DNA of 64,000 nucleotides. Source: a bacterium (GTDB taxonomy: Bacteria > SZUA-79 > Acidulodesulfobacterales > Acidulodesulfobacteraceae). This document shows, in pieces, positions 21,612 through 43,808 of this stretch. Where the stretch lies: NCBI GenBank assembly GCA_021789605.1, contig JAJYJI010000004.1:1-64000 (forward strand). The letters are read 5' to 3'. The translations under genes and the position numbers were made by a program. Every line of letters begins with the position of its first letter. The stretch's first letter is position 1. A model generated the notes under the pieces. The model was given only the letters and a program-made list of their open reading frames with translations. It had not been told where the DNA came from and made no database searches.

Positions 21612-22100
21612 TCACTTCTTTCTTTCGTATTTCCCGCTTTTCCCGCCATCTTTGCGCATCAGGTATATTTCGGATATTTCGATAGATTTATCGGCCGCCT
21701 TCAACATGTCGTAAACCGTAAGGGCCGCAACGGACGCCGCGGTCAGGCTTTCCATCTCTACTCCGGTTTTGCCGGATATCTTAACGGTAGATATTATCGT
21801 TACGGCGTTTTCTTTTTCGCCGTATTCGAAGGCGACGTCGCAACTTTCGATATTTAAAGGATGGCATAACGGGATTAATTCCGCGGTTTTTTTTGCGGCC
21901 ATAATGCCCGCAATTTTAGCCGTTCCGAACACGTCGCCTTTTTTACCGGTTCCGCATACGGCAAGATTAAAGGCTTCTTCCGACATGGATACCTTTGCAT
22001 GCGCCGAAGCTGTTCTTACCGTTTCGGTTTTTTGGGAGACGTCCACCATTTTCGGCATACCTTTTTCGTCCACATGGGATAATTTTATTTCTTTTTTCAT
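21612..22100 (-). CDS. moaC: Cyclic pyranopterin monophosphate synthase MoaC
   Basis: Converts the MoaA product 3',8-cH2GTP to cPMP in molybdenum-cofactor synthesis. The 162 residues match MoaC throughout: SHVDEKGMPKMVDVS, KGDVF, the active-site LIPLCHPL, VEMESLTAASVAALTVYDM, and KSG near the C-terminus. Unlike moaA and moeA at 34-36 kb, nothing in it looks divergent. It is separated from the other moco genes by about 10 kb and stands between sdhA and an ABC solute-binding protein. Confidence 0.95.
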   Translation of the reverse strand: MKKEIKLSHVDEKGMPKMVDVSQKTETVRTASAHAKVSMSEEAFNLAVCGTGKKGDVFGTAKIAGIMAAKKTAELIPLCHPLNIESCDVAFEYGEKENAVTIISTVKISGKTGVEMESLTAASVAALTVYDMLKAADKSIEISEIYLMRKDGGKSGKYERKK

Positions 22101-32108: not shown

Positions 32109-32648
32109 TTAAAGTACCGTTTCTAAGATAATATTCCGCTCTATAAAATCGGCAATCTTTTCCGAATCGTTTATATTTATCTGAGGGATTTTTAAATTTT
32201 CGACAGGTTCGTCGCCGCAGACGAGTATGAGGTTGGGGTCGTTTTTAAACCGCGGCTCGAAATCCGGATTTAAATCTTTTCTGAAAAGTTCTATTTTTTT
32301 TATCTTAACGTCTTTGAATCCTTCAATTATAACTATGTCCGAGGCGGCGAAATATTTTCGGATTAAGCATTCAACGCCTGCATCGGAAAAATTATCGGCA
32401 TCGCTAAAGAAAGAAAGTTTTCCGGCGGAAAGCAGCATGGTCGAATACGCTCCCGCATTTTTATGCCTCCACGAGTCTTTTCCGGGAATATCCGCATCGA
32501 TATCGTGGTCGGTATGTTTAACGGACGAAACCCTGTAGCCCCTTCCAGATAATTTTTTTATAATTTTTTCTATAAGGGTAGTTTTGCCGGTGCCGGATTT
32601 AGCGACGAACGAAACCGCTTTGGGATTCCCTTCGGTATTTTTTAACAT
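32109..32648 (-). CDS. mobB: Molybdopterin-guanine dinucleotide biosynthesis protein MobB
   Basis: GTP-binding accessory protein for bis-MGD synthesis. 179 residues: P-loop FVAKSGTGKTTL, VKHTDHDIDADIPGKDSWRH (the family HDF/H-D-x-D region), and EGFKDVKIKKIELFR, which is the MobB signature. It follows mobA by 30 nt on the same strand. Confidence 0.92.
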   Translation of the reverse strand: MLKNTEGNPKAVSFVAKSGTGKTTLIEKIIKKLSGRGYRVSSVKHTDHDIDADIPGKDSWRHKNAGAYSTMLLSAGKLSFFSDADNFSDAGVECLIRKYFAASDIVIIEGFKDVKIKKIELFRKDLNPDFEPRFKNDPNLILVCGDEPVENLKIPQININDSEKIADFIERNIILETVL

Positions 32649-32678
32649 AAAAGACGAAAATATAAATTTATCGAAAAT

Positions 32679-33644
32679 TTATTTGTTTGTTTTAAAAGAT
32701 TCAACCGGGTCGGGGAGCATCTTTATGATTTTATCGCCCATAAAATTTAATTCGTTATCGTAATACATAGAGCCGTCTTTTTGAAAATTCTCGAAAGATT
32801 TTCTAAAATAAAAATAATTTCCGGTTTTGGCGTAAACCCACCAGTAATAAAAAGCCTTAGCCAATATCCCGTATGGTTCGTTTTTAGGGCTTGCCAAATC
32901 GAAAAACCTGTTGGCCTTTCTGATTTTAACGCTTTTAGAGCCGCCTTTATTAAATATCCTTTTATTAATATTATAATCTTCGATATCTTTTTTGCAGTTC
33001 ATATTCATAAAAATATACGGCGTTAAATTTTGGTTATTTTTTGCCATATCGAATATATTATAATAATAAACGGACGGCAAAAGCCTAAGTATATTAACCG
33101 AATCGTTAAATAAAAAATGTTCCTTCAGGTTAAGTGCGTAACCGTTCAGCATATCGAGCGCGTAAACAACGTCTTTTATTTTATAGCATGCAAGAAGCGG
33201 TTCCACGGTCGAATCCGGCCATAATGGGACGGCCGCTTTAACGTTCTCGGATTTTATTTTGCTTATCAGTTCTCTTGCGGCATAGGCGCTAAAAAAAGGA
33301 GCATCGACCTCCATAATTAAAACAATCTCCCCCTTCAGCCTTTTAATTGAACTGTAAATGCCTCTTAACGGACCTTTAAAGCCGCAGTTTTTATCGTCTA
33401 TAATTATGGCGGGAGCCGGTCTTTTTTTACCGGCTTTAGAACTTTTTTCTGCGGCATTTTCGGCTTCCGCGCGGTAATCTTTTATCCTGCTTTCATTCCT
33501 GCCGCATATTATTATATCGTCTGCGACTTCCATGGCGGCGGTTAACGCCCTTCCCAGAAAGGAAATTCCATTAAAATTATAAAAAGTCTTGTCCTCGCCG
33601 AATCTCTTGGACTCGCCGCCGGCAAGTATAATACAGCTAACCAT
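32679..33644 (-). CDS. mobA: MobA-like molybdenum cofactor guanylyltransferase with extra C-terminal region
   Basis: Residues 1 to about 222 are a MobA-type nucleotidyltransferase: LAGGESKRFGEDKT at 7-20, FKGPLRGIYSSI (GPLxGI), the metal site MEVDAPFF, and EPLLACYK. A poorly conserved insertion lies at about 55-78. Residues about 225-321 form an additional region (with ILAKAFYYWWVYAKTGNYFY) rich in aromatic and basic residues. It is not part of normal MobA (about 190-210 residues) and I cannot assign it. Starts 14 nt after the PTPS-like gene. It should attach GMP to molybdopterin; the tail may serve delivery to a client enzyme. Confidence 0.85.
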   Translation of the reverse strand: MVSCIILAGGESKRFGEDKTFYNFNGISFLGRALTAAMEVADDIIICGRNESRIKDYRAEAENAAEKSSKAGKKRPAPAIIIDDKNCGFKGPLRGIYSSIKRLKGEIVLIMEVDAPFFSAYAARELISKIKSENVKAAVPLWPDSTVEPLLACYKIKDVVYALDMLNGYALNLKEHFLFNDSVNILRLLPSVYYYNIFDMAKNNQNLTPYIFMNMNCKKDIEDYNINKRIFNKGGSKSVKIRKANRFFDLASPKNEPYGILAKAFYYWWVYAKTGNYFYFRKSFENFQKDGSMYYDNELNFMGDKIIKMLPDPVESFKTNK

Positions 33645-33657
33645 ATGGTTTAATTTT

Positions 33658-34149
33658 TCATTTCAGGTTCATCCCGATTTTTCCTCTCTGACCGTGGCCT
33701 TCGCTGAGCGTAACTTCAAGATAATCGATTTTATTATCGAACATTTCCCTGTTTTTAAGAGCGCATGCAAGCTCTCCGGCAAAATAAACCGTTAAGTCTT
33801 CTATATTAAGAGAGGGGATTTCCATCTTAAAAATATCGGCTTTCGGAATAATATAGAGCTTATCGTTTATCTCTATGCGGTAATGAAGCGCCTCTTCCGC
33901 AATTTTCTGAACGCTTGCCGGATAATCTGCTATCAAAATTTTATCTTCGAATGTTGCGCATATTTTTTTTATTGCGGATTTTAGATTGTATAAATGTATT
34001 ATCCTTCTTTTATCGTCAAATTCCCCGTTTATTAAAACGTCAACGTAATGAAAATGGGGATGTATTCTAGAACAATCGCCCCTGCCCGGAACGATGTGCA
34101 TGCATTCGAAAATCAAATCCGCTTCTTTTCCGATAAGTTCAACGACCAT
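33658..34149 (-). CDS. 6-pyruvoyl-tetrahydropterin synthase / QueD-like protein
   Basis: 163 residues of the PTPS/QueD fold. The zinc ligands are intact (H18, H30, H32 in CMH and CSRIHPHFH) and so is the family cysteine C26. The DHxxLN block that supplies the catalytic Asp-His pair is not recognisable: the aligned stretch reads FEDKILIADYP. A C-terminal Glu is kept in LEVTLSEGHG. It lies between moaA and mobA in a molybdenum-cofactor cluster and no queuosine gene is nearby. A pterin-related but non-QueD reaction, or a chaperone-like pterin-binding role, is therefore inferred. Ordinary QueD cannot be excluded. Confidence 0.75.
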   Translation of the reverse strand: MVVELIGKEADLIFECMHIVPGRGDCSRIHPHFHYVDVLINGEFDDKRRIIHLYNLKSAIKKICATFEDKILIADYPASVQKIAEEALHYRIEINDKLYIIPKADIFKMEIPSLNIEDLTVYFAGELACALKNREMFDNKIDYLEVTLSEGHGQRGKIGMNLK

Positions 34150-34195
34150 AGTTTATAAGCCTCTTATTTATAGTTAATTATGTTAAAGCGGCATT

Positions 34196-35041
34196 TTATT
34201 CATATAGGAAATTTTTCAAAAAACCGTTGGGAAGAAGCCTTAATCCCGAGCATCTGCCGCCCGATGATTCGCACGGGTCCTTTACGTTCCTGCAAAGCGT
34301 TATTTTAGCTCCGTTTATTTTAAAAAACTGCCTGTCGTTGGATTTTAAAGAATTAAAATCCATACCTGATTTTTGCAGTATCTTCACGGGGTCGCCGTAA
34401 TAATTGCGGTAAATGCCGCTTTCCGTTTTATCGGAAAGTTCTATAAACTGAAGGCTGAAACCGTTTTCCGAACAATATCCGATAATATCGTTCAGGCATT
34501 TTTTATCGGTATTTAAACCTTTTAATAAAAGGTTGTCTATTTCTATATTATAGCCGTTTTTTTTCAGCATGTTAAGTCCCGACAGAACCTCACCGAGCAG
34601 ATTCTTTCCGGTTATAAATTTGTAGATATCGGGGTTTAACGTATCTAAACTGACGGATATTTTGTTTATTATGTTAGGACTTAGGTCTTTCATCCTTTTT
34701 CTAACAAGCGTGCCGTTAGTCGTAATAAATATGTCCGCGTCCGCAATGTGCCTTATCTTATATAATAAATTTTTTAAGTCTTTGAACAAAAGGGGCTCTC
34801 CTCCGGTAAATTTTATTTTTTTGAGGCCGTATTCCCTTAACATATATATATTATTTATTATATCTCCGGTTTGGATGACTGACGTCATTTTTTTTGGAAC
34901 TCCTTCGTTATGGCAATAAAAACAATTTTCGTTGCAGCCGCTCGTCAACGATATCCTTAAAGAAGGAACCTCGAATCCAGACCTGTCCCGCCAGTAATCT
35001 TTTTCGCTTCTGCCGAATATTTTAAAAGGGTATCGATTCAT
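34196..35041 (-). CDS. moaA: MoaA-like radical SAM protein, C-terminally divergent
   Basis: Radical-SAM enzyme of the MoaA family, expected to rearrange GTP to 3',8-cH2GTP. The N-terminal cluster is C36/C40/C43 (SGCNENCFYC), GGEP sits at 80-83, and the N-terminal LRISLTSGC is typical. MoaA normally has about 320-340 residues, a C-terminal 4Fe-4S cluster on C-x2-C-x13-C, and often a Gly-Gly tail. This protein stops at 281. Its C-terminal cysteines are C250, C257 and C264 (x6/x6), the third canonical cysteine is F278, and there is no Gly-Gly tail. No frameshifted remainder follows in the 46 nt before the next gene. Either a variant MoaA or a relative with a different substrate. Confidence 0.8.
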   Translation of the reverse strand: MNRYPFKIFGRSEKDYWRDRSGFEVPSLRISLTSGCNENCFYCHNEGVPKKMTSVIQTGDIINNIYMLREYGLKKIKFTGGEPLLFKDLKNLLYKIRHIADADIFITTNGTLVRKRMKDLSPNIINKISVSLDTLNPDIYKFITGKNLLGEVLSGLNMLKKNGYNIEIDNLLLKGLNTDKKCLNDIIGYCSENGFSLQFIELSDKTESGIYRNYYGDPVKILQKSGMDFNSLKSNDRQFFKINGAKITLCRNVKDPCESSGGRCSGLRLLPNGFLKNFLYE

Positions 35042-35067
35042 TTTGTAGTTTTAAAATATTTTTTTAA

Positions 35068-36360
35068 TTATTTCAATCTAATGCTTTCGTAATCGTTCAG
35101 AGTAACGGATATATTGACGCCAGAACTTATGTGCGTTGAATCTTCGTCCATAAAGAAACTGCCGTCGGCTTTGAGCATTGGGCTCAAAGACCTTGCGGCG
35201 GAGGGAGGTTTAGGAGCCGGCACGACGGATGCCGATAAAACTCCGTTTTCTTTCGTTAATTTTACTAAAAAATATTTTCTCGAGCCGGGTTCTTTGGAAA
35301 TGCTTTCTTTCAGGACCGCGGTTACCGAAGGGTATCTTTTGTAAATGCTTTTGCAGTTCATCATTTTTTGGATATAAGGCCTGATAAAAAGGTCGAATGC
35401 GGTCAGAACGGAGTATGGCCATCCGGCAAGGGCAAATACCGGCGTCCCATGATTTAAGACCCCAAAAGACGTGGGTTTCCCGGGAACCAGCTTAACGCCG
35501 TGAAACAGTAATTTGCCGGTTTCTTCTATTGCCGAAGGAATAAGGTCGTAAAAGTTTACTACATCTTTATTTTCCAGCACTAAAAAACTTGCTCCGGTTC
35601 CGCCCGTCGAAATTATTAAGTCGTATTTGCAGGAATCGTCTGCGGTTTTAAAAATTCCAACCAATTTTTCCAGATTATCCTCAGCGGCGCAGATAAGCTC
35701 GGGAATGCCTCCGGCGTCCTTAACAAGCGCTTTAAGGACGGTTGAATTTATATCGTAAATTTTATTGCGCGCCAGATTTTTTCCGGGCTGAATAAGCTCG
35801 TTGCCGCCCGATAATATTCCTATAACCGGTTTTTTATATACGGAAACTAAATTTAAACCAATGCCGGATAAAGCCGCAATATCGCATAATCTAATCCTGT
35901 GCCCTTTTTTAAATAATACTTTACCCGATTTTATATCGTCGCCCGGCGGCGAAATATAGGAACCTTTCTCGACGGTTTTTTTATATATCATGCGGCCGCC
36001 TGAATAACTTTCGGTTTCTTCTATTAATACGACGCTGTCTGCGTTGGGAGGAAGGGGCGCCCCTGTAGTAACGAACGCGGCCTCGCCCGAATTCAAAGGG
36101 GCTATTTCTTTTGAATAACCGGCGGTAATTTGATTTTTAACTATATATTCGTTTATTTTTTTTTCAAAAAAATCGGAATACATTAATGCGAATCCATCGA
36201 CGGCAGACCTGGCGAAAGGCGGAACGCTATAAGCCGGAACTACGTCTTCCGATATAATTCTGCCTGCGCTGTCCTCGACGCTTATATGCTCAGACAAATT
36301 TATTTTTTTGATATTTCTTTCAGAAATTTTCAACAGGCTTTCGACTGTTTTAGCGCGCAT
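35068..36360 (-). CDS. moeA: MoeA-like molybdopterin molybdenumtransferase, divergent
   Basis: 430-residue MoeA-family protein that would insert molybdate (or tungstate) into adenylylated molybdopterin. Domain order is normal: RSAVDGFAL with D55, TTGAPLPPNADSVV, LSGGNELIQPGKN, and a C-terminal beta-barrel domain. Several active-site blocks are altered. The canonical GGVSVGxxD reads GGTGASFL, and the canonical GLPGNPVS reads ALAGWPYS. PGKPTSFG is kept. The gene leads moeA-moaA-PTPS-mobA-mobB and starts 83 nt after the tRNA-Phe. It may be a specialised MoeA paralogue, for example for another metal. Confidence 0.85.
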   Translation of the reverse strand: MRAKTVESLLKISERNIKKINLSEHISVEDSAGRIISEDVVPAYSVPPFARSAVDGFALMYSDFFEKKINEYIVKNQITAGYSKEIAPLNSGEAAFVTTGAPLPPNADSVVLIEETESYSGGRMIYKKTVEKGSYISPPGDDIKSGKVLFKKGHRIRLCDIAALSGIGLNLVSVYKKPVIGILSGGNELIQPGKNLARNKIYDINSTVLKALVKDAGGIPELICAAEDNLEKLVGIFKTADDSCKYDLIISTGGTGASFLVLENKDVVNFYDLIPSAIEETGKLLFHGVKLVPGKPTSFGVLNHGTPVFALAGWPYSVLTAFDLFIRPYIQKMMNCKSIYKRYPSVTAVLKESISKEPGSRKYFLVKLTKENGVLSASVVPAPKPPSAARSLSPMLKADGSFFMDEDSTHISSGVNISVTLNDYESIRLK

Positions 36361-36442
36361 AATTTTAAAATAATAAAAACCGCCAATCTATATCGGCGCA
36401 ATGGCGGCAATGACGGTTTAAATTTATACAATATTCTTAAGG

Positions 36443-36518
<76 letters not shown>

Positions 36519-36579
36519 TTAATACGCGGAAAATGAAGCTTCATAATTTGTCAGAAAATATTTATGCCGCCGTAAAAAT

Positions 36580-36629
36580 TCCCGCAATAAAAATATTTGA
36601 GAGAATTTTGGACAATATTTATTGCGGGA
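36580..36629 (-). terminator. probable intrinsic terminator of the atp operon
   Basis: A 12-bp perfect stem (36580-36591 with 36618-36629, TCCCGCAATAAA and its complement) encloses a 26-nt AT-rich loop. On the minus strand it is followed by ATTTTTA. It lies 14 nt after the stop of atpE copy 1. The long loop and short T-run make it imperfect, but the position fits. Confidence 0.6.
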
Positions 36630-36632
36630 TTA

Positions 36633-37089
36633 AAAAAATTCGTTATTTCAAAAATATTCCTTTAAAAGGATTCGCGTAAAAGAGAATAAAGGTTATTAGA
36701 AGGGCGTAAAGCGCCAAGGATTCCATAATGGCCATACCGGTAATCATCCATACGATAAGCTTTTTTTCCATTCCGGGGTTCCTTCCCATGGATTCGAGCG
36801 CTCCCCTGACGGCGTTACCCATACCTACGCCTGCGCCGATAACGCCCAGGCCTATCGCAAGCCCTCCGCCTAACGCGGACAGTCCGAAAAACAAACTTTT
36901 GGAAAACAGGACGGAATGTGCCATTATATGGTGATGAACCGCCGGCGCATTATTCATTGTTTTCTCCGCAAAAGCCTTAACGCCGAAAACCAATACGGCC
37001 GCAAACGTAAAAATCGAAATAAATACCTTAGACATTAATAATACCCCCGAATTTTATTTTATTTTTTTTAAATTTTAATGCTCTTCTTC
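36633..37089. repeat. 457-bp perfect direct repeat, copy 1 (atpB 3' end + atpE)
   Basis: Identical base for base, by reading, to 43406-43862 (offset 6773). It holds, in transcript order, the last four codons and stop of atpB, the 39-nt spacer, the whole of atpE and 10 nt after its stop. Outside these limits the two loci diverge completely. Confidence 0.95.
36643..37035 (-). CDS. atpE: F-type ATP synthase subunit c, copy 1
   Basis: Rotor-ring proteolipid. The 130-residue precursor has a signal peptide (1 to about 23, VKAFA) and a short His-rich segment. Helix 1 carries the glycine motif GLGVIGAGVGMG, the polar loop is R85-N86-P87, and helix 2 has the ion-binding carboxylate E105 in IMESLALY. 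E105-S106 and Y110 resemble Na+-type c subunits, but the glutamine that completes the Na+ site is methionine (M72), so protons are the more likely ion. It follows atpB by 39 nt and ends the operon. The protein is identical to that at 43416-43808. Confidence 0.96.
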   Translation of the reverse strand: MSKVFISIFTFAAVLVFGVKAFAEKTMNNAPAVHHHIMAHSVLFSKSLFFGLSALGGGLAIGLGVIGAGVGMGNAVRGALESMGRNPGMEKKLIVWMITGMAIMESLALYALLITFILFYANPFKGIFLK

Positions 37090-43415: not shown

Positions 43416-43808
43416 TTATTTCAAAAATATTCCTTTAAAAGGATTCGCGTAAAAGAGAATAAAGGTTATTAGAAGGGCGTAAAGCGCCAAGGATTCCATA
43501 ATGGCCATACCGGTAATCATCCATACGATAAGCTTTTTTTCCATTCCGGGGTTCCTTCCCATGGATTCGAGCGCTCCCCTGACGGCGTTACCCATACCTA
43601 CGCCTGCGCCGATAACGCCCAGGCCTATCGCAAGCCCTCCGCCTAACGCGGACAGTCCGAAAAACAAACTTTTGGAAAACAGGACGGAATGTGCCATTAT
43701 ATGGTGATGAACCGCCGGCGCATTATTCATTGTTTTCTCCGCAAAAGCCTTAACGCCGAAAACCAATACGGCCGCAAACGTAAAAATCGAAATAAATACC
43801 TTAGACAT
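43416..43808 (-). CDS. atpE: F-type ATP synthase subunit c, copy 2
   Basis: Protein and nucleotide sequence identical to the copy at 36643-37035 (130 residues, signal peptide, E105 carboxylate, M72). This copy occupies the position between atpI and atpF' that atpE holds in most bacterial operons. It is preceded by a fossil of the atpB end rather than by atpB. It lies upstream of the internal atp promoter, so its expression should depend on the Rieske/cytochrome b promoter or read-through. Identity implies recent duplication or gene conversion. Confidence 0.95.
   Translation of the reverse strand: MSKVFISIFTFAAVLVFGVKAFAEKTMNNAPAVHHHIMAHSVLFSKSLFFGLSALGGGLAIGLGVIGAGVGMGNAVRGALESMGRNPGMEKKLIVWMITGMAIMESLALYALLITFILFYANPFKGIFLK

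Follow-up and report, generated by a model that had tools for sequence, protein, structure and literature searches.

A lineage-specific second set of molybdenum-cofactor genes in the Acidulodesulfobacterales suggests a side branch of cofactor biosynthesis

Introduction

The C-terminal CxxCx13C motif of MoaA carries an auxiliary [4Fe-4S] cluster that binds GTP. The molybdenum and tungsten enzymes of all organisms are generally held to share essentially a single pyranopterin structure, with only the metal, nucleotide and sulfur ligands varying. A metal-specific branch has been described in Methylorubrum extorquens, where the MoeA paralogue MoeA1 and MobB form a tungsten branch, and Arg291 and Ala312 of MoeA1, which replace the canonical Lys and Ser of the oxyanion pocket, bias it to tungsten (PMC13197769). 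Within the PTPS superfamily (COG0720), CxxxHGH is the motif of QueD, or PTPS-I (PMC5041015), and ExxHGH that of PTPS-III, the enzyme of the folate bypass (PMC5041015, PMC2229834). A PTPS-I/III hybrid motif, CExxHGH, is said to serve both queuosine and folate synthesis (PMC5041015).

Here we describe an altered second gene set in acid-mine SZUA-79 bacteria of the Acidulodesulfobacterales that suggests an undescribed side branch of molybdenum-cofactor biosynthesis. The set resembles the MoeA1-MobB branch in linking an extra MoeA paralogue to mobB and mobA and in its putative service to a DMSO-reductase-family enzyme, but the Methylorubrum branch has neither a radical SAM nor a PTPS partner. We found no account of this gene arrangement in the literature, and the paper describing the order Acidulodesulfobacterales does not mention molybdenum.

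Results

The window, a stretch of 64,000 nucleotides, lies on contig C34 of a 2.0 Mb assembly that is 99% complete with 5.2% contamination. Five cofactor genes are encoded on its minus strand in the order moeA2, moaA2, ptps2, mobA, mobB. This bears out a reading made earlier from the sequence only, which had described a contiguous moeA-moaA-PTPS-mobA-mobB cluster with a PTPS-like gene embedded in it (here between moaA2 and mobA) and a normal moaC elsewhere. Pfam and NCBIfam name all five genes as that reading did, mostly under the curated 'equivalog' cut-offs. The features of the locus are as follows.

tRNA-Phe(GAA), 36443-36518, minus strand: moeA2 is next in line, the genes that intervene in relatives being absent
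moeA2, 35068-36360, minus strand: divergent MoeA paralogue of 430 aa, assigned by Pfam MoeA_N, MoCF and MoeA_C and by alignment with the family and with the genome's own canonical MoeA
moaA2, 34196-35041, minus strand: shortened, re-wired MoaA homologue of 281 aa
ptps2, 33658-34149, minus strand: PTPS/QueD-superfamily protein with CxxxHPH
mobA, 32679-33644, minus strand: MobA-like nucleotidyltransferase with a C-terminal extension
mobA/mobB junction, 32649-32678, minus strand: the genes for a 184-aa FeS protein and a 441-aa NADH oxidoreductase found in relatives are absent
mobB, 32109-32648, minus strand: MobB (TIGR00176, 129 bits; cut-off 76)
moaC, 21612-22100, minus strand: ordinary member of the canonical pathway (PF01967, 181.9 bits)

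At Rfam thresholds, no upstream riboswitch such as the Moco motif was detected in the corresponding part of the window or in five relatives. The neighboring atp region contains two genes for ATP-synthase c-type subunits of 130 aa each (36643-37035 and 43416-43808).

Among 30 genomes from a single family, the window genome included, 27 carry the set. Apart from the window genome, moaA2 and ptps2 are adjacent in 26 of 29 members, and the survey of neighborhoods showed the block moeA2-moaA2-ptps2-mobA to be contiguous in these 26 relatives, with mobB nearby. Neither protein was found in the 31 genomes outside the family that were searched first. A PTPS2 profile run over 386 genomes matched only the family members and one remote protein (genome G091), beside which no Moco genes were seen. 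Two peptide patterns from PTPS2, scanned against 84,980 species, returned 23 loci with matching gene order, all in metagenome-assembled genomes, some of them named SZUA-79 or Candidatus Acididesulfobacter diazotrophicus; such a scan needs near-exact patterns, and remote relatives elsewhere would escape it. Between close pairs of genomes, dN/dS was mostly 0.03-0.06 for PTPS2 (higher in one very close pair that differs at few sites); the values were 0.06-0.10 for MoaA2 and, in most pairs, 0.05-0.13 for MoeA2. The set is thus under strong purifying selection, and its motifs and gene order are not due to chance, as both recur in 26 further genomes under low dN/dS.

MoaA2 shares with Staphylococcus aureus MoaA (1TV7/2FB2) a radical-SAM core in which the CxxxCxxC motif (C36, C40, C43) is intact, with cysteines invariant across the family, and a GGEP motif (T79-P83) that is likewise invariant. 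Its predicted fold (pLDDT 81) best matches MoaA, with a TM score of 0.73. The protein matches MoaA models along its own entire length but far under the NCBIfam cut-offs (171 versus 231 and 140 versus 284 bits), and Pfam Mob_synth_C is not matched. The C-terminus falls just past the position of the second auxiliary cysteine. Alignment with the genome's own canonical MoaA identified C264, in that second position, as the sole survivor of the auxiliary triad; it is kept throughout the family except in one member with Arg. An extra cysteine, Cys250, is nearly invariant in the family (invariant in one alignment). The Gly-Gly tail is gone, all members ending in ...NFLYE or ...FxY where the canonical copy ends in EIGG. 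The sequence-only reading had MoaA lacking both the C-terminal cluster motif and this tail; the tail and two auxiliary cysteines are indeed missing, but one cysteine stays.

Further differences from S. aureus MoaA lie at positions that contact GTP in MoaA structures. The equivalents of Arg17, Lys69 and Arg268 are kept, whereas Lys163 is replaced by Glu167, Arg192 by Gln198 and Arg266 by Gly266, all three invariant in the family. Three of six basic residues of the GTP phosphate site are thus replaced and fixed as Glu, Gln and Gly. PDB entry 2FB2 is itself an Arg17/266/268 mutant of the S. aureus protein. MoaA2 is closest to MoaA, not QueE. In a phylogenetic tree, it makes up a single clade on a long stem, separate from the MoaA of the phylum itself; this rules out a recent duplicate of the genome's own MoaA, although the exact position of the clade has low support (45). 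A degraded pseudogene is ruled out by purifying selection and the fixed motifs.

PTPS2 retains the T-fold, the three zinc histidines, a cysteine at the QueD position and the pterin-anchor glutamate of the PTPS superfamily. His18, His30, His32, Cys26 and Glu150 are invariant in the alignment, as is the motif CxxxHPH, with HPH where QueD has HGH. The catalytic Asp-His pair is replaced by an equally invariant Glu68-Asp69. ExxHGH of PTPS-III is absent, Ser standing at the Glu position of that motif and HPH in place of HGH, and Cys in place of the PTPS-III Glu. By published motif rules (PMC5041015), PTPS2 belongs to none of PTPS-I, II or III, and it forms its own clade confined to one family. Its predicted fold (pLDDT 89) best matches the PTPS of Plasmodium vivax (3lze, TM 0.84), including the inserted segment of that protein; QueD gave a TM score of about 0.5.

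MoeA2 matches MoeA_N and MoCF_biosynth above the Pfam cut-offs and MoeA_C slightly below. As previously proposed, its GGVSVG and PGNP blocks are altered: STGGTGASF plus an insertion of about 10 residues stands where canonical MoeA has SGGVSVG, and AGWPYS where it has PGNPVS. Both substituted blocks are fixed in the family members aligned, and they fall in the region that forms the metal/pterin site of known MoeA. No MobA other than that of the cluster was found in the genome. Its C-terminal extension (within 32679-33644) evolves fast, and in one genus MobA reaches 540 aa and is Asn/Lys-rich (L082:7781-9403).

Canonical counterparts of the divergent proteins are encoded elsewhere in the genome. 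A single protein with Mob_synth_C was found: the canonical MoaA, encoded on contig C16 and 342 aa long (TIGR02666, 365 bits; cut-off 284), which carries [22 protein letters not shown], CxxCx13C and a GG end. A second MoeA, canonical with PGNP, and a canonical QueD, above the NCBIfam cut-off and with motif CExxHGH, are both on contig C25. A MoaD-MoaE (ThiS-MoaE) fusion of 228 aa is encoded at about 94-95 kb of contig C34 (L089:9793-10479), adjoining a MogA/MoaB-type protein. With canonical MoaA, MoaC, MoaD-MoaE, MogA and MoeA present, the ordinary pathway is therefore complete without moeA2, moaA2 and ptps2. The genome also encodes at least two further bis-MGD-type enzymes, an NAD-dependent formate dehydrogenase and a TtrA-like enzyme. 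QueE is present in a close relative. With a separate QueD here and QueE in that relative, PTPS2 cannot be taken by default for the enzyme of the queuosine pathway; together with the failed motifs, these genes rule out a default assignment to queuosine or folate synthesis.

In relatives, the cofactor genes are embedded in an enzyme operon. Following the atp genes and, at most loci, tRNA-Phe are genes for an HdrB-like protein, an 847-aa DMSO-reductase-family enzyme, a 217-aa DmsB-like FeS protein and an 81-aa protein; these four lie between tRNA-Phe or the adjacent atp genes and moeA2. After moeA2, moaA2, ptps2 and mobA come genes for a 184-aa FeS protein and a 441-aa NADH oxidoreductase (PadH-like), with mobB nearby. 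The 847-aa enzyme is 90-98% identical at the amino acid level across genera, and the MoaA2 proteins of relatives are 51-73% identical to that of the window. The enzyme (at L066:2530-7022 together with its HdrB-like, DmsB-like and 81-aa partners, with homologues in 25 relatives) appears cytoplasmic and passes none of the cut-offs set for curated enzyme families. A protein of 76-81 aa without a Pfam or NCBIfam match always adjoins it (L141:3269-3499, L066:6777-7022).

In the window genome, moeA2 comes straight after tRNA-Phe and mobB straight after mobA, and neither the 847-aa enzyme nor the 441-aa protein was found anywhere in the assembly. This apparent loss of two enzyme modules flanking the cofactor genes (36361-36642 and 32649-32678) is seen in this genome only. 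The four genes moeA2, moaA2, ptps2 and mobA are intact; their terminal branches are long, but mobB and a dus gene have long ones as well, and the private substitutions of the four genes are few, conservative and comparable to those on other deep branches. The 847-aa enzyme occurs in 25 of the 26 relatives with the MoaA2/PTPS2 pair, the exception (G008) being at a contig end, and the three family genomes without the pair also lack the enzyme. Outside the family, the unrelated genome G312 encodes a 54% identical enzyme with 208- and 76-aa partners, and has canonical MoaA only, with no PTPS2 among the matches listed.

Discussion

We read the cluster, with slightly less than even confidence, as a second, lineage-specific bis-MGD cofactor module on top of a complete canonical pathway. 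Since the sole MobA found in the genome belongs to the unit, the set would best be read as a lineage-specific tailoring branch of bis-MGD assembly built on a re-purposed MoaA and a new PTPS. We infer its chemistry, from substrate and product to the sequence of steps and the enzymes served: MoaA2 would act on a pterin, not GTP, PTPS2 would share its intermediate, and the product would enter the cofactor. Canonical MoaA, MoaC, MoaD-MoaE and MogA would produce (adenylylated) molybdopterin. MoaA2, devoid of the auxiliary [4Fe-4S] cluster and of part of the triphosphate contacts, would direct radical chemistry to another substrate, probably a less phosphorylated one of pterin type. PTPS2, a T-fold enzyme with zinc whose proton relay is altered, would work on this pterin or a neighboring one; action on a pterin intermediate is plausible given its conserved T-fold, zinc and pterin-anchor residues. 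MoeA2 would insert the metal, and MobA/MobB would complete the dinucleotide. The clients would be the cell's DMSO-reductase-family enzymes, namely the 847-aa enzyme in relatives, and in the window genome the NAD-dependent formate dehydrogenase and TtrA-like enzyme, which the unit should also serve because no other MobA was found. In a more specific version, possible but rather doubtful, a pterin made or modified by MoaA2 and PTPS2 would give the DMSO-reductase-family enzymes of this phylum a bis-pterin cofactor of different chemistry, to which MoeA2 and the extended MobA would be adapted.

Adjacency alone is no proof that the cofactor is the target of MoaA2 and PTPS2: moeA2 and mobA may persist for ordinary reasons, the pair just lying next to them. 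The pair might instead make a free pterin or, like QueD and then the radical-SAM QueE, a deazapurine, which would serve as a redox or one-carbon cofactor, the operon being merely shared. A PTPS-superfamily enzyme adjoining a radical-SAM enzyme does recall the QueD-QueE pair, the rewiring of MoaA2 leads away from the GTP triphosphate, and MoaA2 and PTPS2 are retained here without the 847-aa enzyme. However, the radical-SAM partner is nearest to MoaA and not QueE, QueD and QueE are encoded separately (QueE in the relative), and ptps2 and moaA2 sit exactly between moeA2 and mobA in every genome examined, so that we consider a free product unlikely. The co-occurrence of enzyme and pair across the family might alternatively indicate a private maturation system of the 847-aa enzyme, with the enzyme lost recently from the window genome and the cofactor genes on their way out. 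We find this quite improbable: both flanking modules are gone, yet the four intervening genes are intact with few, conservative substitutions, and G312 has the enzyme without the pair. Because the window genome keeps the pair without the enzyme and G312 the reverse, each case being one genome, the pair is not strictly private to the enzyme. Judged by gene content, this type of enzyme can apparently do without MoaA2 and PTPS2, at least in G312.

A different division of labor would have MoeA2 and MobB/MobA as an insertase branch for tungsten or another metal, with ordinary pterin and MoaA2/PTPS2 as accessories. In favor of it, a single genome encodes two MoeA paralogues and one of them lies with mobA and mobB, which recalls the published tungsten branch (PMC13197769); both changed MoeA2 blocks also lie at the metal/pterin site of known MoeA. 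Unlike MoeA1, however, MoeA2 shows neither the Arg291 nor the Ala312 change: its Lys (in PGK) and Ser (in GWPYS) are the canonical ones, while the insertion and the AGWPYS block are peculiar to it. Searches for AOR in the window genome and 18 genomes of the same family gave no hit, and no Tup/Wtp genes were noticed beside the cluster. Tungsten specificity is therefore not supported by the known MoeA determinants, and a metal branch of any kind seems improbable to us. Least credible, to the point of being very improbable, is ordinary redundancy, in which MoaA2, PTPS2 and MoeA2 are divergent isofunctional copies, such as an extra GTP cyclase and a folate or queuosine PTPS. Homology to MoaA, PTPS and MoeA is clear, but MoaA2 has lost the second cluster, the GG tail and GTP contacts, PTPS2 the Asp-His dyad and HGH, and canonical copies of all three are present, the genome's own QueD bearing the hybrid motif. 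The sequence-only reading had considered a modified pterin or another metal, and would have been overturned had the genome no other moaA/moeA, with close relatives using the same sequences in the ordinary way, or had the PTPS gene proved to be QueD. It withstood this check, since both canonical genes exist and PTPS2 fails the QueD motifs and is not QueD by default. A modified pterin is possible, whereas the tungsten idea is not supported.

The preferred reading, a tailoring branch of bis-MGD assembly, has several consequences. The operon is conserved and supplements a complete canonical pathway with a rewired MoaA and a new PTPS subfamily, so that a second branch of pterin synthesis becomes a hypothesis open to test; one genome without the neighboring enzyme and another with the enzyme but without the pair provide experimental entry points. 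MoaA and PTPS annotations in the SZUA-79 phylum are likely wrong at the level of the reaction. If the bis-pterin reading is true, these bacteria would have a cofactor that is new to the molybdopterin class.
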